The notes below the pieces were generated by a model. That model did no database searches, was not told the origin of the DNA, and saw only the letters and a list, made by a program, of their open reading frames with translations. Position numbers and translations under genes: made by a program. A stretch of 10,810 nt of DNA from an uncultured Anaerosolibacter sp. (GTDB taxonomy: Bacteria > Bacillota_A > Clostridia > Peptostreptococcales > Thermotaleaceae): the NCBI GenBank assembly GCA_937948705.1, contig CALECF010000227.1, forward strand, positions 1-10,810, written 5' to 3'. Positions 4,256-10,810 of this stretch are shown here, in pieces; the stretch's first letter is position 1; each line of letters starts with the position of its first letter.

Positions 4256-4504
4256 TTAGTTTCCTATGTCTGCCACAGCTGCTGCAATTTCTATAAGAGC
4301 CTTCATTCGGAGCTGTTTATCTAATAGAAACGCCTTTTTTTCACCCTCACTGTTGGTAGACAAAAAGTACTTTTGGGGTAGTTTATTCAAAACAGTGGCA
4401 AGGACATCATTCCTGCGATTTTCATCCCCATCTAAGCCATAGTGCTTCAAATACTCCGTCATCACTTCCCTTACCAGCATCTCCGTGTAATTTTGCATCG
4501 TCAT
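4256..4504 (-). CDS. comFB: ComFB-family protein
   Basis: This 82-residue protein matches the late-competence protein ComFB family. NYTEMLVREVMTEYL at the N-terminus, NDVLATVLNKLPQKYFLS in the middle, and FLLDKQLRMKALIEIAAAV near the end align with the general ComFB pattern (NDVLAL-LN...P-Y, LVDKQ). B. subtilis ComFB carries a Cys-x-x-Cys element just before NDVLA. Here that stretch is DGDENRR and there is no cysteine, so metal binding is unlikely. ComFB proteins of cyanobacteria and other bacteria are reported to bind cyclic dinucleotides. ATG at 4504 is chosen because GGGGTGG precedes it by four bases. ATG at 4498 is a possible alternative. The longer in-frame ORF to 4657 is not coding, because it covers the terminator and much of a riboswitch. 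Expression should be set by that c-di-GMP riboswitch. Confidence 0.8.
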   Translation of the reverse strand: MTMQNYTEMLVREVMTEYLKHYGLDGDENRRNDVLATVLNKLPQKYFLSTNSEGEKKAFLLDKQLRMKALIEIAAAVADIGN

Positions 4505-4543
4505 ATTCCCACCCCTTCTCCTATACATATTTTCCCATATTGC

Positions 4544-4570
4544 AAAAAGACACCTACACAGGCGCCTTTT
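4544..4570 (-). terminator. Riboswitch expression-platform terminator
   Basis: On the minus strand AAAGGCGCCT (4560-4569) pairs with AGGTGTCTTT (4546-4555) through ten pairs, two of them G-U, around a GTGT loop. The T-run extends to 4544. It lies between the c-di-GMP aptamer and the comFB ribosome binding site, the expected position of a transcription-termination expression platform. An antiterminator was not resolved, so whether c-di-GMP turns comFB on or off is undecided. Confidence 0.7.
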
Positions 4571-4611
4571 ACGAGTGATGAACGAACTTTGTCTATTTAT
4601 CACGCACTTCT

Positions 4612-4705
4612 CTTCGGCAACCTGGCAATCATCGGAATGAGCTTCCCTTAGACCCATGGCTTTGCGTCCTTATCTTTCGATAAGTTTGCAATTAACGGCA
4701 TATCG
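4612..4705 (-). ncRNA. c-di-GMP-I riboswitch (GEMM-I)
   Basis: Read on the minus strand the order is GCAAAC, a short hairpin closed by a GAAA tetraloop (TTATCGAAAGATAA), the hallmark GGACGCAAAGCC, a second arm with GGGTCTAAGG, and the closing CCAGGTTGCCGAAG. This follows the GEMM-I consensus (as in Vibrio Vc2) element by element. That includes the tetraloop, the conserved adenosine run that inserts between the ligand bases, and the receptor arm. The base before CAAAC is G, the identity associated with c-di-GMP recognition, whereas cGAMP-type variants have A there. It lies about 110 bases upstream of comFB and is followed by a terminator. The 5' border is approximate. Confidence 0.93.
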
Positions 4706-4795: not shown

Positions 4796-5446
4796 CTATA
4801 TCCGCTGCTCAATCTTCTGAATGTCATCATTATGACCTACCACTACGAGTACATCACCTTTGTTGATCATATCTAAAGCAGTTGGAGATATATTAATCTC
4901 ACTGCCGTGCTTGATCGCCATCACATTGATGCCATACTTGGCCCGCATGTTCAAATCCTTAAGGTTTTTACCTTCCCAATCCTTTAATGCCGATATTTCT
5001 ACAATGCTGTAATCAGGAGCCACTTCAATATAATCTAAGATGTTAGAGGATACTAGGTTATGGGCTACCCTTACCCCCATGTCCCGTTCAGGAAATACCA
5101 CACGATCAGCCCCAATTTTGTACAGCACTTTGGCATGGAGCTCATTTTGAGCCTTTGTCACCACATATTTAATCCCTAGATCCTTAGTAATCAGGGTAAT
5201 CAATATGGATGATTGGATATTGGAGCCAATGGTCACAACGGCCACATCAAAATTTCGAATTCCCAAGGATTTCAGTGAAGTCTCATCGGTGGCATCCACC
5301 TGAACCGCATGGGTAACCGAATCAGCAATGGCCTGTATCACATCTTCATTTTCGTCAATGGCCAACACATCATAACCTAAGCTATATAACGTTCTCGCAA
5401 CACTGGATCCGAATCTTCCACATCCGATGACAACAAATTGCTTCAT
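4796..5446 (-). CDS. ktrA: Ktr/Trk K+ uptake regulatory subunit (RCK protein)
   Basis: This 216-residue cytoplasmic subunit gates the K+ channel-like transporter KtrB. The N-terminal RCK/TrkA-N Rossmann domain (about 1-125) has GCGRFG at 8-13, an acidic strand end VLAID near 30, and QVDATDETSL near 49-58, which together form the nucleotide site (ATP/ADP in KtrA/KtrC). The C-terminal TrkA-C domain (about 135-216, with INISPTALDMINKGDVLVVVG) is the region that binds c-di-AMP in characterised KtrA and KtrC proteins. Length is typical of KtrA/KtrC and about half of duplicated proteobacterial TrkA. AAAGGGGA precedes the ATG at good spacing. It follows ktrB by 16 bases and is surely co-transcribed. 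Assignment to KtrA rather than KtrC is arbitrary from sequence alone. Confidence 0.92.
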   Translation of the reverse strand: MKQFVVIGCGRFGSSVARTLYSLGYDVLAIDENEDVIQAIADSVTHAVQVDATDETSLKSLGIRNFDVAVVTIGSNIQSSILITLITKDLGIKYVVTKAQNELHAKVLYKIGADRVVFPERDMGVRVAHNLVSSNILDYIEVAPDYSIVEISALKDWEGKNLKDLNMRAKYGINVMAIKHGSEINISPTALDMINKGDVLVVVGHNDDIQKIEQRI

Positions 5447-5462
5447 TCTTTATTTCCCCTTT

Positions 5463-6824
5463 CTACCCTACGATTACCTTTTCCTCTGGATATTTGTACA
5501 CACCCTTATTCTTTCTCTGCTGACTTGCTAACGCCAACGCCACTGTTAAAGGTCCAAGTCTTCCTGCAAACATGGTTAAGGAAATAATGATCCTGCCCAG
5601 GGCCGTTAGCTTCGACGTAATACCTAAGGATAAGCCCACTGTGCCAAAGGCCGAAGTAGTCTCAAATAAAATTTCAAGAAAGCTATGACTTTTTTCCGTA
5701 ATTGTCAAAATCATGGTTACCATGACGACCAAGGTCATGGCAATTCCAACAATGGCTAGGGAGCGACTCATAATCTCCCGAGGCAATCTCCTGTGGAAGA
5801 TCTCTGTGTCTTCTTTCCCCCTAATCTCAGAAATAATCGTCCAAATCAGTACCCCGGCAGTTGTAGTTTTCACCCCTCCAGCCGTTCCTGCAGGGGAGCC
5901 ACCGATAAACATCAATACAATGGTAATGAAGATAGTTGCCATGGTAAGCTGCTCCATCGGTAGTGTATTAAAGCCCGCAGTTCTTGGGGTAACGGAATGG
6001 AATATGGCCGCTAAAAATTTTCCCTTCCATGGCAATGGCGCTATTGTATTTGGATTACTATATTCCAAAGCAAAAATGACAATAAAGCCAATCAAAAGTA
6101 AGGCTGCAGTAGCCACCAACACAACCTTGGTATGTAGGGAAAATTTCTTAAACTTTCTTTTTTGAAGGATCTCTAGGACTACGCTGTAACCTAGCCCCCC
6201 CGTAACAATCAAGAAACAAATGACAATGTTCACCAAGGCATCGCTTACAAATGGTGTCAAGCTCCTAAAATCACCAATAAGATCGAAACCCGCATTACAA
6301 AATGCAGAAATCGCATGGAATATACTATAGCCAATTCCTTTCCATAATCCATAGATAGGTACAAACTTAAAAGATAAAAGAATGGCCCCAATACCTTCTA
6401 TGGTAAAGGTAGTAATCAATATATATTGGGTTAATCTCACAATACCCTCTATATTGAATTGGTTGAGGGCCTCTTGCATAACCAACCTTTCCTTTAAGGA
6501 GATTCTTCGTCCAAAAATTAAGGCCATAAAGGTTGCCATGGTCATAAATCCTAGACCGCCAATTTGTATTAACAATAAAATAATTACTTGTCCAAAGACG
6601 GTCCAATAAGTACCTGTATCAACCACTACCAATCCTGTTACACACACTGCAGAAGTGGACGTAAAGAGGGCATTGATGAAACCTATGCTCTCTCCATTCT
6701 TAGTGGCAATGGGTAAATTCAACAATATCGATCCTATAAAAATCACTGCAGCAAAACCAAGAACAAGAATCTGTGCAGGATTTAATTTCACATCATTCCA
6801 GCGCATCGTATCTATCTTAATCAT
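5463..6824 (-). CDS. ktrB: Ktr/Trk K+ transporter membrane subunit
   Basis: This 453-residue protein belongs to the TrkH/TrkG/KtrB superfamily of K+ transporters, which are built from four channel-like membrane-pore-membrane repeats. All four selectivity-filter segments are visible: SAVCVTGLVVVDTG, SAFCNAGFDL, TPRTAGFNT and SAFGTVGLSLG. The GGSPAGTAGG segment fits the intramembrane gating loop. Length fits KtrB/KtrD rather than the longer TrkH. KtrB systems are generally stimulated by Na+, which would suit an alkaliphilic or salt-adapted host. The start at 6824 has AGGAG directly abutting the ATG, which is too close, so the upstream TAGGA or the ATG at 6806 may be used instead. It is encoded between the CBS protein and ktrA. 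Confidence 0.93.
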   Translation of the reverse strand: MIKIDTMRWNDVKLNPAQILVLGFAAVIFIGSILLNLPIATKNGESIGFINALFTSTSAVCVTGLVVVDTGTYWTVFGQVIILLLIQIGGLGFMTMATFMALIFGRRISLKERLVMQEALNQFNIEGIVRLTQYILITTFTIEGIGAILLSFKFVPIYGLWKGIGYSIFHAISAFCNAGFDLIGDFRSLTPFVSDALVNIVICFLIVTGGLGYSVVLEILQKRKFKKFSLHTKVVLVATAALLLIGFIVIFALEYSNPNTIAPLPWKGKFLAAIFHSVTPRTAGFNTLPMEQLTMATIFITIVLMFIGGSPAGTAGGVKTTTAGVLIWTIISEIRGKEDTEIFHRRLPREIMSRSLAIVGIAMTLVVMVTMILTITEKSHSFLEILFETTSAFGTVGLSLGITSKLTALGRIIISLTMFAGRLGPLTVALALASQQRKNKGVYKYPEEKVIVG

Positions 6825-6876
6825 CTCCTAACATCCTACAGCCTTACTGTATTCATTATCACCAAATATTCTTATC

Positions 6877-7302
6877 TTATGTTCTATCTCTAGACGATTT
6901 ATCTGATATTAATCGGTGACAGTATTGAATAATATCACTTCTTTTTATGATTCCAATAAAAATTTCCTGGTCATCAATCACAGGAACAAAATTCTGATTC
7001 TCGGCTAGGGTAAGTAAATCTTCAATATCTGCATTGATGGATACGGGTTTATTCACGATTCGCTTTGATATATCCTTGATACGAATCTTACTAGCTTCCT
7101 TTAAGTTAAAATCAGCCATTCCCTTAAATTTCCATAGTAGATCTCCCTCCGTCAGGGTGCCTACATATCTTCCATCCTCATCTATCAAGGGGACTGCTGT
7201 ATACCTGTGGTACTCCATTCGCTCCAATACCTGCCTCATGGTAGACTCAGGCGATTCATAAATCACTTCACTTTTGGGGGTAAGAAAAAACGCAATATTC
7301 AT
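6877..7302 (-). CDS. CBS-domain pair protein
   Basis: This is a 141-residue stand-alone Bateman module. CBS1 spans about residues 15-65 (YTAVPLIDEDGRYVGTLTEGDLLW) and CBS2 about 78-132 (NFVPVIDDQEIFIGIIKRSDII). CBS pairs bind adenine nucleotides or cyclic dinucleotides, and some Firmicutes stand-alone CBS proteins (DarB/CbpB) bind c-di-AMP. This one is not clearly of that subfamily. AAAGGAG lies five bases before the ATG. It is first in a likely operon with ktrB and ktrA behind a consensus promoter, so a role in sensing K+, osmotic or nucleotide status is a reasonable inference. No catalytic domain is present. Confidence 0.85.
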   Translation of the reverse strand: MNIAFFLTPKSEVIYESPESTMRQVLERMEYHRYTAVPLIDEDGRYVGTLTEGDLLWKFKGMADFNLKEASKIRIKDISKRIVNKPVSINADIEDLLTLAENQNFVPVIDDQEIFIGIIKRSDIIQYCHRLISDKSSRDRT

Positions 7303-7344
7303 AGTTTCTCCTTTCTTTCCATCATCCCTCTATTTTCAGCTTCC

Positions 7345-7373
7345 ATTATAAATTGATTTTACGCCACCGTCAA
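7345..7373 (-). promoter_or_regulatory. Sigma-A promoter of the CBS-ktrB-ktrA operon
   Basis: On the minus strand TTGACG (7368-7373) and a perfect TATAAT (7345-7350) are separated by exactly 17 bases. Transcription would start about 35 bases before the CBS gene. This separates the ktr unit from corA upstream. Confidence 0.85.
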
Positions 7374-7374
7374 A

Positions 7375-7393
7375 GGGAATTTTTAAGATTCCC
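7375..7393 (-). terminator. Weak hairpin after corA
   Basis: GGGAAT and ATTCCC form a 6 bp stem with a seven-base loop, followed on the minus strand by only three T residues. It lies 68 bases after the corA stop and directly abuts the -35 box of the next operon. It may be a weak terminator for dedA-corA, or coincidental. Confidence 0.3.
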
Positions 7394-7460
7394 TACCCAT
7401 TTTCTTTGTTGCCCATAAGGTTGGTTCTTTTGGCCAAACGCCTACGACCTAGGCATTCTT

Positions 7461-8420
7461 CTATTTGTAGATATCGAACCATCCTTTCCTTTTAAACCAA
7501 ATAAACATTATCCCTCCGATTATGCCCATTAGACCCAACACTGCAAAATATCCATACCGCCACTCTAACTCAGGCATATATCTGAAATTCATACCATAAA
7601 CCCCTGCAATGAAGGTTAATGGTATAAAGATCGTTGTGATGACTGTGAGAAGCATCATAATGGCATTCATGCGATTAGAGTTTATAGCCAGGTAACTATC
7701 CCGCATATCCGAGGTTACCTCCAGATTGGACTCCACCATTTCTGAAAGCTTCAACAGATGGTCATAAATATCATCAAAATATAGCTTCTTTTCATGAAAC
7801 TCCTTCAAGTGATTTGAGTTGAGGATGCGATACAATAAATCTCTCATGGAGTTAATTAATCGTCTGAGCTTCATTAAATCCTTCCGAATATCGAAAACCC
7901 TGTCCATCAATACCCTGGTCGAATAGCCTTCTACATTATCTTCTAGCAAATCAATTTCGTCCTCTATGTGATATACCGCGGGGAAATATTCGTCTGTAAT
8001 TTTGTCTAAAATAAGATGGGCAATGGATATGGGGCCTTGGCTATCCATATGTTTCTGGGCCGATACCTTATCCCATGCCCCATCCATTTCAAGGGAATGC
8101 TTCAGATGTACCGATACTACATAATTTTTTCCTACAAAAAAATCTATTTCCTCTGCTTCCATCGTTGTTTTATTTAACCCATTGACTACAAAAAATGTAT
8201 AGTCTTCATAATAGTCAAGCTTTGGCCGCTGCATCATATGGAGGCAGTCTTCTATGGCCAATGGGTGAAATTGAAAGACCTGCTCGAGCAGCGCAATTTC
8301 CTCTTCATCTGGACTTTCAAAATCAGCCCAGAACCATTTAAGCTTCATCGAGCCTAGTTTTTCCATGGGGAGATCCATCACTAATTTTGAATCCTCCGTT
8401 ACTGCCATCGTACGAATCAA
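7461..8420 (-). CDS. corA: CorA-family Mg2+ transporter
   Basis: This protein of about 319 residues belongs to the CorA metal transporter family, pentameric channels for Mg2+ (and sometimes Co2+ or Ni2+). A large acidic cytoplasmic domain (about 1-255) includes the long helix region VFDIRKDLMKLRRLINSM. Two C-terminal membrane helices follow. The first ends in the signature YGMNF, then the short outside loop MPEL, then the second helix and the basic tail FKRKGW. The start is taken as TTG at 8420, because homologues usually begin M-I-R-T-x-A-x-T-E-D and GGTGGTGG sits eight bases upstream. The frame is open to a GTG at 8435 and also has an ATG at 8408. It lies 60 bases after dedA in the same direction, so co-transcription is likely. 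Confidence 0.92.
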   Translation of the reverse strand: MIRTMAVTEDSKLVMDLPMEKLGSMKLKWFWADFESPDEEEIALLEQVFQFHPLAIEDCLHMMQRPKLDYYEDYTFFVVNGLNKTTMEAEEIDFFVGKNYVVSVHLKHSLEMDGAWDKVSAQKHMDSQGPISIAHLILDKITDEYFPAVYHIEDEIDLLEDNVEGYSTRVLMDRVFDIRKDLMKLRRLINSMRDLLYRILNSNHLKEFHEKKLYFDDIYDHLLKLSEMVESNLEVTSDMRDSYLAINSNRMNAIMMLLTVITTIFIPLTFIAGVYGMNFRYMPELEWRYGYFAVLGLMGIIGGIMFIWFKRKGWFDIYK

Positions 8421-8480
8421 TGCTCCGTCCACCACCTATCAACATTTCCAGTTTTGAGCATTCTAGCTATTGACCAACAT

Positions 8481-9116
8481 TTACCTTTGTTTTTTATTCC
8501 TTCTTAATAAGTATCTGAAGGTAAACACACCGATCAAAGGCACTCCTACAATTAAAAATAGTAGTGGTCCTGTTGAATGAATTACTCTTTGAATGTCATC
8601 TATATTGTCTCCCAGCTGATATCCCACGTATCCCATAGCCACTACCCAAGGAGAAATTCCTAGAAACGTATATATAGCAAATTTACTTCTCCCCATATGG
8701 TGCATCCCTGCAATATAAGAAAAATAATTACTCAAAAATGTAGGTCTGGATAGACATACGGCAATTTCCCCATATTTATTGAAAAGGTCCTCTACCATCT
8801 GGATTTTATCTTGATGCTTATTCAATGTTTTCACAAATCGCTTCTGGGCAAAATCATTCACATGTTTGCCGATATAGTAGGGAATAAATGCTGCCAATGT
8901 ATACGCACTACTACCTAGGACAAGCATAATGAGAGGATTGAGCCGATAGTGTTTCACAAAAAATCCACTTAAGACCAGTACAAAGGTCCCTGGAAAAGGC
9001 AAAGAGGTTCCTTCTAGGAACATACCTATAACCATGGCAAGATAACCATGGATACCTGATTCTTGCGTAAAATCTACAAGTCTCCCCACCAATGAGGCTG
9101 CAACACCTATAACCAT
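8481..9116 (-). CDS. DedA-family membrane protein
   Basis: This 211-residue protein is of the DedA (VTT/SNARE-associated) family, integral membrane proteins linked to membrane homeostasis, pH and cation tolerance and, in some members, recycling of undecaprenyl phosphate. Family features are FLEGTSLPFPGTFVLVLSGF (about 33-52), a central amphipathic region, and SRPTFLSNYFSYIAGMHHMG in the second half, followed by the usual W-containing helix (GISPWVVAMGYVGY). In many DedA proteins the second motif has a further Arg after the Pro. Here that position is occupied by Leu/Ser. The start at 9116 is decided by GGAGG six bases upstream. The in-frame ATG at 9137 lies upstream of that site. It heads a probable dedA-corA operon, divergent from mgtE. 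Confidence 0.88.
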   Translation of the reverse strand: MVIGVAASLVGRLVDFTQESGIHGYLAMVIGMFLEGTSLPFPGTFVLVLSGFFVKHYRLNPLIMLVLGSSAYTLAAFIPYYIGKHVNDFAQKRFVKTLNKHQDKIQMVEDLFNKYGEIAVCLSRPTFLSNYFSYIAGMHHMGRSKFAIYTFLGISPWVVAMGYVGYQLGDNIDDIQRVIHSTGPLLFLIVGVPLIGVFTFRYLLRRNKKQR

Positions 9117-9148
9117 GTCATCCCTCCTTCTCACCACATACTAGCATC

Positions 9149-9244: not shown

Positions 9245-9274
9245 TTGACATTTGTACCCTTTTTCACATATCCT
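9245..9274 (+). promoter_or_regulatory. Promoter of the mgtE unit
   Basis: A perfect TTGACA (9245-9250) is followed after 18 bases by TATCCT (9269-9274, four of six matches). Transcription would begin near 9281, giving a leader of about 205 bases before mgtE. Confidence 0.6.
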
Positions 9275-9311
9275 ATGAATAGACAGTGAATACTATTTGT
9301 TAGGCGAGTCA

Positions 9312-9350
9312 GACTTTTTAGTGTTGCGCTAAAAAGTCTTTTTACTATGT
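9312..9350 (+). terminator. Attenuator-like terminator in the mgtE leader
   Basis: AGACTTTTTAG pairs perfectly with CTAAAAAGTCT around TGTTGCG, where two further pairs are possible, and is followed by a run of five T. It lies about 30 bases after the predicted transcription start and before the leader ORF, so it would stop mgtE transcription unless an antiterminator forms. No plus-strand gene lies upstream that would need it as an ordinary terminator. Confidence 0.8.
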
Positions 9351-9373
9351 ATTAAAAATAGGAGGTGGGATCT

Positions 9374-9469
9374 ATGGATTCAGGTCCGTATGCCAGTCGT
9401 TATATGGACGTTTTATACTACTGCAGGGTCTTGAATCCATGGCACTACCCTTGGATTCATCCTCTGTAA
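9374..9469 (+). CDS. Candidate mgtE leader peptide (31 aa)
   Basis: A 31-codon ORF starts at ATG with the strong ribosome binding site AGGAGGTG six bases upstream, better than that of most genes here. The peptide begins MDSGPYASRYMDV, is rich in Tyr and Trp, and ends NPWHYPWIHPL with three prolines in the last ten residues. The stop codon is 18 bases before mgtE. Mg2+-transporter leader peptides of enteric bacteria (MgtL of mgtA, CorL of corA) also use short ORFs, some of them proline-rich, to couple translation to Mg2+ level. This ORF is not recognisably homologous to them. It lies inside a structured RNA region with alternative pairings, which supports a regulatory rather than purely coding role. 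Confidence 0.6.
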   Translation: MDSGPYASRYMDVLYYCRVLNPWHYPWIHPL

Positions 9470-9482
9470 AAAAAGGGGAGGA
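9374..9482 (+). promoter_or_regulatory. Alternative-hairpin region of the mgtE leader RNA
   Basis: Three segments compete. Segment 1 is ATGGATTCA (9374-9382) and includes the leader start codon. Segment 2 is TGAATCCAT (9432-9440), the exact complement of segment 1. Segment 3 is TGGATTCA (9452-9459), which pairs with eight bases of segment 2. Helix 1:2 would bury the leader start. Helix 2:3 would free it. Nested inside 1:2, GTCCGTAT can pair with ATATGGAC with one G-U. Right after segment 3, TCCTC (9460-9464) can pair with GAGGA of the mgtE ribosome binding site (9478-9482). Confidence 0.6.
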
Positions 9483-9487
9483 AGAAT

Positions 9488-10810
9488 ATGCCTTATGAAT
9501 TCTATGAAAAAGATTTAATTCAATTTCTTACCACTACAAGTCAATCCCAAATCGATGAACTTATAGAAGACATCCATCCAGCCGATATTCTGGATGCAAT
9601 AAGAATTTATGAAGGCGATAAGAAGCTGCTATTCCAGAAGCTTCCTGAATGGGTAATCGCTGCGATTATTGACTATGCTGAGGATGAAGAAAAGTATGAG
9701 ATACTTTCTATCTTCCCTGAAAAACGGCAGAAAGACATTGTAGACGAGATGTCCTCCGATGAGCTGGTAGACCTATTGGGTTCTATTCCTAAAGAACAGG
9801 CTGATGACATCATTGTGAAGCTTGACCTAGAAGAAGCCGAGGAAGTAAGGGAATTATTGACCTATAAGCCCGATACCGCCGGTGGCATCATGGCTACCGA
9901 ATTCATTTGTATCCAAGATATCATGTCTGTGGGAGAGACCCTAAAGTATCTGCAACAGGAAGCTCCTGATGCAGAAACTGCCTACTATATTTATGTATTG
10001 GACGAGCGCGATCATTTAAAGGGTGTGGTATCCTTAAGGGATATCGTTGTCAATAACTTTGATATAAAAATTGGCGATATTATGAACGAAAATGTCATCA
10101 GCATTCCAGTAGATATGGACCAGGAGGAAGTAGGTCATATTTTTGAGAAATATAGCTTTCTCACCATGCCTGTTGTGAATGAAAGGGATGAAATGCTGGG
10201 TATCGTTACGGTGGATGACATCATGGCAGTATTAAGCGATGAGCATACGGAGGATATGTACCGTCTAGCAGGCCTTCAGGAAGGTGATAAGGTTACAGGA
10301 ACCATTGGGGAATCCGTAAGAAGCAGGTTACCCTGGCTCTTTGTAAATCTAGTCACTGCCATCCTTGCCGCAGCCACCGTTAGTCTATTTGAAGACACTA
10401 TTTCAAAGGTTGTAGCCTTAGCTACCTTCATGCCTATCGTGGCAGGTATGGGCGGCAATGCAGGGACCCAAACCTTAACTTTGGTTGTCCGAGGAATCGC
10501 CTTAGGAGATTTAACCTATGAAAATGGAAAAAAAGTTCTTTTAAAAGAGTTTGGTGTAGGTGTTAGTAATGGTTTGGCCATTGGATTATCGGTAGCCACC
10601 TTGGGATATCTTTGGGAGGGCAAGCCAATCTTTGGCTTAGTGATTGGATTAGCTATGTTCTTGAACCTCATCGCCGCCACCACTGCAGGTTTTCTAGTGC
10701 CTGTAACCCTTAGAAGATTTAAAATTGACCCCGCCCTTGCATCGGCAGTATTCGTAACCACCGTTACAGATGTATTAGGCTTTTTCTTTTTCTTAGGATT
10801 GGCCACATTG
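9488..10810 (+). CDS. mgtE: MgtE Mg2+ transporter (3' end outside window)
   Basis: This Mg2+ channel-transporter is 441 codons long to the right edge with no stop. MgtE proteins are about 450 residues, so only the last few are missing. Order of domains: MgtE-N superhelical domain (about 15-130, with IHPADILDAI and MSSDELVDLLGSIP), the linking KPDTAGGIMATEF, two CBS domains (about 140-255, GVVSLRDIVV and GIVTVDDIMAVL) that close the pore when Mg2+ is plentiful, and a membrane domain from about 280. The membrane domain contains PIVAGMGGNAGTQTLTLVVRG and TVTDVLGFFFFLGLA, whose Asp forms part of the Mg2+ path. GGGGAGG precedes the ATG at six bases. It is preceded by the leader ORF and structured RNA, and is divergent from dedA-corA. 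Confidence 0.95.
   Translation, partial: MPYEFYEKDLIQFLTTTSQSQIDELIEDIHPADILDAIRIYEGDKKLLFQKLPEWVIAAIIDYAEDEEKYEILSIFPEKRQKDIVDEMSSDELVDLLGSIPKEQADDIIVKLDLEEAEEVRELLTYKPDTAGGIMATEFICIQDIMSVGETLKYLQQEAPDAETAYYIYVLDERDHLKGVVSLRDIVVNNFDIKIGDIMNENVISIPVDMDQEEVGHIFEKYSFLTMPVVNERDEMLGIVTVDDIMAVLSDEHTEDMYRLAGLQEGDKVTGTIGESVRSRLPWLFVNLVTAILAAATVSLFEDTISKVVALATFMPIVAGMGGNAGTQTLTLVVRGIALGDLTYENGKKVLLKEFGVGVSNGLAIGLSVATLGYLWEGKPIFGLVIGLAMFLNLIAATTAGFLVPVTLRRFKIDPALASAVFVTTVTDVLGFFFFLGLATL

Follow-up and report, generated by a model that had tools for sequence, protein, structure and literature searches.

The window, a stretch of 10,810 nucleotides from an uncultured Anaerosolibacter sp., ends within mgtE, a Mg2+ transporter gene whose product is recognized by TIGR00400 (348.4 bits, for a cut-off of 232.75) and displays the MgtE_N, CBS and MgtE domains (Pfam). 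The closest named relative of the window, L001, belongs to an Anaerosolibacter sp. MAG and is 93% identical. Upstream from mgtE lie a promoter-like site, a terminator-like hairpin and a short leader ORF endowed with its own Shine–Dalgarno (SD) sequence:

9245–9274, + strand: promoter-like site (TTGACA, 18 nt, TATCCT), with 10 of 12 consensus bases
9311–9339, + strand: terminator-like hairpin of 13 pairs followed by TTTTT; it comes after an M-box aptamer in relatives, the aptamer being absent here
9360–9367, + strand: leader SD, AGGAGGTG, preceding the leader ORF
9374–9469, + strand: leader ORF, 31 codons plus stop, MDSGPYASRYMDVLYYCRVLNPWHYPWIHPL, with the recurrent N-terminal motif MDSGP at codons 1–5
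9488–10810, + strand: mgtE, which leaves the window at its end

Promoter-like sites of that quality are expected 1.9 times by chance in the region; the one found here has an aligned and conserved counterpart in two related loci, L090 and L091. The opposite strand carries an ion-transport cluster (4796–9137, − strand) comprising TrkA, TrkH, a CBS protein, a CorA-kind gene (7461–8435), which is the second Mg2+ transporter gene of the window, and a VTT-domain protein. Also on the minus strand, a c-di-GMP-I riboswitch (4613–4700, 83.5 bits) is located where a ComFB-like gene (4256–4657, Pfam) begins.

The earlier note on this DNA had singled out a 31-codon ORF with a strong SD just before mgtE. 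The ORF is indeed present and is rare in randomized sequences: of 2000 first-order Markov shuffles of this 320-nt region, 2 yielded an ORF of 25 or more codons whose SD match reached 7 or more, versus 405 of 2000 when SD matches from 4 upwards were accepted. Its codons 2–5 (DSGP) specify one acidic residue and one proline, and its stop codon is separated from the mgtE start by 18 nt. A known riboswitch in the window leader was rejected, as the scan against Rfam returned no family at gathering score; the two sub-gathering matches, to microRNA and lncRNA families, were far below threshold.

Predicted alternative pairings of the leader RNA

Folding of the leader region, together with the family covariation described below, delineates four segments:

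9372–9387, + strand: segment 1, which covers the leader start codon and has segment 2 as its partner when the leader is ribosome-free
9427–9442, + strand: segment 2, corresponding to leader codons 18–23, with segment 1 as partner, or segment 3 via 9433–9442
9449–9467, + strand: segment 3, in which 9449–9458 pair with segment 2 and 9455–9467, including the anti-SD TCCTC, with segment 4
9475–9487, + strand: segment 4, the mgtE SD region, with GGAGG at 9477–9481, hidden in helix 3:4

The predicted helices are (i) helix 1:2, between 9372–9387 and 9427–9442, with 15 bp and a duplex energy of −25.2 kcal/mol; (ii) helix 2:3, between 9433–9442 and 9449–9458, with 9 bp and −16.3 kcal/mol; (iii) helix 3:4, between 9455–9467 and 9475–9487, with 11 bp and −13.2 kcal/mol. 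Helices 1:2 and 3:4 are exclusive with helix 2:3, and helix 3:4 hides the transporter ribosome-binding site (RBS), which is the stem logic of MgtQ-like attenuators. The window leader is more stably folded than shuffled sequences, with a z value of −2.85 (9358–9500), and of −4.79 when the upstream terminator is included (9283–9500). The earlier note had proposed three segments pairing as 1:2 or 2:3, a leader start codon lying inside segment 1 and a TCCTC able to mask the mgtE RBS. Both alternative pairings fold, helix 1:2 holds the start codon, and TCCTC (9460–9464) masks GGAGG (9477–9481) in helix 3:4; the number of segments has to be corrected to four, because folding adds helix 3:4, whose second strand is the mgtE SD region.

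A recurrent leader family upstream from Mg2+-transporter genes of Clostridia

Upstream regions were scanned for ORFs having a start codon, an SD match of 4 or more, D or E at position 2, P at positions 4–6 and a length of 10–70 residues. The MgtE set consisted of 120 upstream regions of at least 180 nt each, non-identical over their last 120 nt. The M-box set was derived from a class-wide sample in which 91 of the 391 genomes contain an M-box; 90 of 100 listed places were used, four others being already in the MgtE set, and the downstream gene was callable in 88 of the 90. The motif occurs upstream of 19 of 53 close mgtE genes (shuffle mean 0.2), of 18 of 67 distant mgtE genes (shuffle mean 0.75) and behind 43 of the 88 M-boxes (shuffle mean 0.6), compared to 0 of 124 control genes of the named loci (shuffle mean 0.4). 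With the rule frozen, it was found again in 24 cases (shuffle mean 0.7) in a further M-box set made of the 70 best-ranked of 100 listed places in a phylum-wide sample; the two M-box samples share taxa, and removal of the previously found leaders left 23 of the 24. Conversely, the rule is unmet at 34 of the 53 close and 49 of the 67 distant mgtE genes, at 45 of the 88 M-boxes and at 46 of the 70 further ones, some of these loci carrying variants and others having no such ORF. None of the sampled genomes is known to be from Bacilli.

The genes downstream of the family leaders are mgtE, corA and genes for MgtE_N/PRC proteins, often with an M-box upstream. Before mgtE, the peptides start with MDSGPYASR (window), MDSGPSHHI, MDSDPYSRC, MESVPPSRN, MEGDPLSRR, VDSYPPSRC, MDSSPLPRR or MDSGPLPSR; before corA, with MDCDPDSNY or MDADPGEKR; MDNGPYGGR and MESGPRSGR precede genes that start like the one for the MgtE_N/PRC protein of locus L219 (Pfam). 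Nine of the family peptides matched no NCBIfam model, and one gave a weak Pfam match, below the cut-off. Among viral contigs, a single stretch fit a pattern and none encoded a relative. The window ORF, with its SD, its start codon, an acidic residue at position 2, a proline within positions 4–6 and a Mg2+-transport gene downstream, is thus, on sequence grounds, a member of a recurrent leader-peptide family located before Clostridial Mg2+-transporter genes.

Covariation of the segments and the predicted ribosome-position switch

The analyses below used 86 leaders, i.e. 80 motif matches plus six Pro-less variants chosen by eye from the close mgtE set. In hybridizations of non-overlapping segments (n = 83), the segments of a given leader paired better with their own partners than with the segments of other leaders, with z values of −20.8 for 2:3, −11.8 for 1:2 and −11.3 for 3:4. 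These values are optimistic, because the sequences are related, yet the non-partner combinations 1:3, 2:4 and 1:4, which are equally related, remained flat (z of −0.8, −1.5 and −0.7; n = 83). The result held after dereplication on segment 2, which left 46 leaders: slightly overlapping segments yielded z values of −15.8 (2:3), −10.5 (1:2) and −9.1 (3:4). Of the features that the earlier note had proposed to look for in relatives, covariation of the helices is found there, and conservation of the peptide is seen at its N-terminus. The sequences themselves show that the ORF forms a family, that this family is linked to Mg2+-transporter genes and that its four-segment RNA co-varies.

To model a translating ribosome, the mRNA was removed up to the ribosome front for each codon, and the cost of freeing the downstream SD was then computed (equilibrium folding at 37 °C, several of the loci being from species named for cold). 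The mean cost over the 86 leaders is 5.3 kcal/mol when the leader is ribosome-free, close to 3 kcal/mol when the P-site is at codons 1–12, and 6.1 and 6.6 kcal/mol at codons 16 and 18, respectively, whereas shuffled bodies stay near 3 kcal/mol at all positions. A rise in cost of more than 2 kcal/mol after codon 8 is predicted for 66 of the 86 leaders versus 35 of 516 shuffles, and both transitions exceed 2 kcal/mol in 43 of the 86 versus 5 of 516; the remaining 20 leaders show no switch. Among the 73 leaders having a detected change, the switch point falls at codon 14 or 15 in 39. For the window itself, the predicted cost is 7.1 kcal/mol with no ribosome, 1.7–2.3 kcal/mol at codons 1–12 and 7.4 kcal/mol at codon 16.

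Sorted by downstream gene, switching is predicted for 22 of 25 leaders of close mgtE genes, 15 of 18 of distant mgtE genes, 15 of 22 of M-box mgtE genes, 8 of 12 of corA genes, 5 of 5 of MgtE_N/PRC genes, 1 of 3 of unclassified genes and 0 of 1 of P-type ATPase genes (the gene classes behind M-boxes being assigned by sequence motif, with three proteins checked by Pfam). Switching is less marked in the further set, with 9 of the 23 new leaders and a mean amplitude of 2.67, compared to 66 of 86 and 4.16 in the first set; 14 of the 23 have no clear switch. Nineteen off-motif leaders, 13 of them without an early Pro and some preceding P-type ATPase genes, display no mean change: 4 switch singly and 15 do not, including one that was not computable, and several of the gene starts in this group are uncertain.

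The fold is thus predicted to depend on ribosome position, and the model suggests a single logic for the family: the SD is closed in ribosome-free leaders, open with a ribosome at codons 1–13, and closed again past about codon 15. We propose that, when the leader is ribosome-free, helices 1:2 and 3:4 would form and hide the mgtE SD (OFF). A ribosome initiating or held on codons 1 to about 13 would cover segment 1, enabling helix 2:3 to form and freeing the mgtE SD (ON), and a ribosome past about codon 15 would melt segment 2, so that helix 3:4 would form again (OFF). The early M-[DE]-S-x-P motif would be placed so that a ribosome pausing there, or ribosomes repeatedly initiating and dropping off, hold the switch ON, low Mg2+ being the putative cause of this early pause or drop-off. 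Taken alone, the logic of a ribosome-controlled translational attenuator for mgtE is in our view highly probable.

For the window, the model also predicts SD opening (1.3–1.5 kcal/mol) when a ribosome stands close to the leader stop, so that translational coupling may add to the effect. Plain coupling, whereby ribosomes terminating at the leader stop would make the mgtE SD accessible or re-initiate, early sensing playing no part, would fit this prediction as well as the short distance between leader stop and gene start, 18 nt in the window and 17 nt as a median over the 86 leaders. However, this distance ranges from an overlap of 82 nt to a gap of 205 nt and exceeds 50 nt in a quarter of the leaders; moreover, coupling explains neither the 1:2 and 2:3 covariation nor the sharp change at codons 14–15, which makes it a very unlikely substitute for the attenuator.

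Conservation of the peptide and of its codons

In the family, the first residues of the peptide recur (M-D/E-S-G/D/S-P near the start) and the remainder is variable, the frequencies of D/E at position 2 and of P at positions 4–6 being partly circular since the scan required both. Variants without the early Pro exist (MDSYLSRN, MDPSGYSS and MECDTGNS). In some relatives the early motif is DPDP or DADP, and the further set contains leaders that come near an EPDP motif (MDPDPGSS, VDPDPWSS, MDADPEPQ and MEDPYPGY), not all of whose RNAs switch. We take the family leaders to resemble the full MgtL peptide.

The earlier note had placed sensing in the Pro/Trp-rich C-terminus, NPWHYPWIHPL. The second half of the window leader has a nearly identical RNA counterpart in its two closest relatives, L090 and L091, where the ORF nevertheless runs in a different frame; a conserved sensor at the Pro/Trp-rich end was therefore rejected, and the recurrent N-terminal M-[DE]-S-x-P is more likely to be the sensing part.

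The ORF is open over at least 18 codons in all 86 leaders, the corresponding figures being 42% for shuffled bodies and 19% for the other two frames, and Ser3 is written by TCT, TCG, TCA, TCC, AGC and AGT; this variety of Ser3 codons argues for selection on the peptide. These data bear on whether the RNA could itself be an ion- or ligand-sensing riboswitch and the ORF incidental, as one might gather from the strength and covariation of the helices and from an RBS that is masked in one state and accessible in the other. Against it speak the single frame kept open, the six codons used for Ser3 and the Rfam scan of the window leader, with no family at gathering score and only the distant microRNA and lncRNA matches, so that we regard an autonomous riboswitch as extremely improbable and retain an attenuator controlled by translation of the leader.

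The codons of the early motif are biased: CCA is found at Pro codon 5 in 0 of 71 leaders (20.0 expected) and at codon 7 in 1 of 27 (6.0 expected). We keep the avoidance of CCA at codon 5 as a hint, as it may be a trace of selection at the decoding or tRNA level. It need not mean tRNA sensing, because other codons are also skewed and 53 of 76 folds place the third base of codon 5 in a base pair, so that pairing may account for part of the bias. Nor is it a plain pointer to TrmD, since loss of m1G37 reportedly stalls ribosomes at Pro codons in general (PMC8384417, available text).

This codon bias is one reason to consider that the same attenuator might respond not to Mg2+ but to general translation stress, such as ribosome drugs or a shortage of charged or modified tRNA-Pro, raised Mg2+ uptake then steadying the ribosome. 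In the fold model any early pause would turn the switch ON, and a response to charged tRNA-Pro has been attributed to mgtP and mgtL of Salmonella. On the other hand, the family precedes several kinds of Mg2+-transport genes, often behind a Mg2+-sensing M-box, and the absence of CCA at codon 5 is weakened as a clue by the skew of other codons and the frequent pairing of the third base. We therefore deem a translation-stress signal rather unlikely and favor low Mg2+.

Relationship to the M-box riboswitch

An M-box lies ahead of the terminator and leader in L001 and L090. The window can be aligned with L090 and L091 over its promoter-like site, 5' end and terminator, and about 160 nt of aptamer are missing from it (at 9300–9345), consistent with the absence of any M-box aptamer (RF00380) match at gathering score in its mgtE leader (Rfam). 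This gap represents either a natural deletion or an assembly fault. Leaders with no M-box match were also found at L008, L015, L024, L027, L028, L047, L121, L126, L127, L130, L143 and L148. In a pool of 13 leaders of this kind, including that of the window and that of L023 (for which about 200 nt of upstream sequence is too short to judge the M-box), 11 switch; the attenuator thus stands without the riboswitch.

In several Clostridium loci (L009, L010, L121 and L126–L130), a terminator-like hairpin comes immediately after a strong promoter-like site and precedes the leader, or mgtE directly in the case of L009 and L010; no M-box was matched where scanned. These loci look like a second group resembling aptamer loss. 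Upstream of mgtE in L097–L103, stretches before the leader look by eye like diverged M-boxes, although Rfam detects no M-box at gathering score in L098. Finally, in L254, L255, L261, L264, L269 and L271, M-boxes precede P-type ATPase genes resembling those of Mg2+-translocating ATPases (checked for L254 and L271, judged by eye for the other four). The ORFs behind these M-boxes are short and encode acidic residues early on; most of them lack Pro, and most lack an RNA switch.

Comparison with known systems

A four-segment scheme is typical of erm-type drug-induced translational attenuators. The likeness to these systems lies in an early-held ribosome that rearranges the hairpins so that the downstream RBS becomes accessible; unlike in erm-type attenuators (PMC5118997, PMC11264731), neither drug nor resistance gene is involved here and Mg2+ transporters lie downstream. 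A close parallel in logic is Salmonella mgtQ/mgtB (PMC8092293, available text), where a short ORF with a strong SD and an acidic residue at position 2 precedes a Mg2+ transporter gene, where 1:2 and 3:4 oppose 2:3 with the transporter RBS hidden in 3:4, and where a ribosome on segment 1 favors the ON state. Mutations in that system probed stems 1:2, 2:3 and 3:4 as well as the acidic residues at positions 2 and 5; without the start codon the system was OFF, and the single Pro mattered only through pairing. In MgtQ-like attenuators the acidic residues are required for the next gene to be expressed, through an effect restricted to translation; the window ORF has Asp2. However, mgtQ has 8 codons and sits between operon genes, before a P-type ATPase gene, whereas the leader described here has about 31 codons, occupies a 5' leader before mgtE, corA or MgtE_N genes, often behind an M-box, and contains segment 2 within its ORF. 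Sequence homology is not claimed.

The E. coli and Salmonella MgtL leader, before mgtA, also combines early acidic and Pro codons with a Mg2+ transporter gene next to it (PMC11282234, PMC6335274 and PMC6460261, in the parts available). According to these sources, its early EPDP motif makes ribosomes drop off when Mg2+ is low (PMC11282234), a link exists between its Pro codons and the Mg2+-dependent TrmD (PMC6335274), and slow or aborted translation at low Mg2+ turns expression ON, as proposed here; its output is Rho-dependent transcription termination, whereas the output predicted here is the RBS of the next gene. The M-box (ykoK) riboswitch, RF00380, governs the same genes and in many relatives comes right before the leader, but it is an aptamer RNA acting via a terminator and is absent from the window, the leader being a separate downstream module. 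In Mycobacterium tuberculosis, a conserved small ORF likewise lies between an Mbox and the next gene, pe20; the Mbox controls this uORF via a translational platform and Rho, and the available text of PMC12810186 assigns no clear role to the peptide and describes no four-segment attenuator.

M-boxes also precede mgtE-nramp operons, the Nramp cases being mostly from Clostridia and Deltaproteobacteria, and the accessible part of that source (PMC4072509) mentions no leader peptide there. The mgtE motif of PMC11109978 is, in the text available, confined to Thioalkalivibrio, and the corresponding parts of PMC10219788, PMC8632094 and PMC12121999 hold nothing on the leader family, the last one touching on antibiotic uORFs. 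Family peptide strings, searched as text in open-licence literature, led to unrelated subjects, and we found no published description of the family in that literature under leader peptides, uORFs, M-box, mgtE, corA or TrmD. The earlier note, which had not recognized a described element, was therefore right as regards the family in open-licence literature; the kind of mechanism is known, since Salmonella mgtQ/mgtB shares the four-stem logic. Altogether, we consider this recurrent leader-peptide attenuator to be real: its mechanism is of a kind already known, and it operates within a family and a setting for which we found no description in open-licence literature.

The translation-coupled Mg2+ sensor suggested in the earlier note holds insofar as a switch acting on the mgtE RBS is predicted, whose alternative pairings involve the leader start and are maintained across Clostridia by compensatory change, the link to Mg2+ being drawn from the gene and M-box context. 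By analogy with the systems above, we infer that low Mg2+ is the signal and that ribosomes would pause or drop off at the early motif; the whole statement, an attenuator switched on by an early pause or drop-off at the acidic/Pro motif at low Mg2+, appears to us reasonably probable.

Implications for Mg2+ homeostasis in Clostridia

We lean slightly toward the broader view that Clostridia carry a widespread, undescribed ribosome-based Mg2+ sensor, composed of an early acidic/Pro leader and a four-segment RBS switch, which is often in series behind an M-box, can stand alone without an aptamer as in the window, and would be convergent with enterobacterial MgtL and MgtQ. The family already provides a large natural alignment for taking apart the peptide motif, the codons and the RNA switch, and expression studies of M-box genes gain a layer to consider, as many of these genes carry a leader ORF between the aptamer and the gene. 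If the proposal is correct, ribosomal sensing of Mg2+ on an early acidic/Pro nascent chain, described in enterobacteria, would extend to Clostridia; transcription and translation of mgtE, corA and MgtE_N/PRC genes would both be gated by Mg2+ through different physics; and the sensor would be stackable on the M-box riboswitch, so that one transcript would yield two independent readings of Mg2+.
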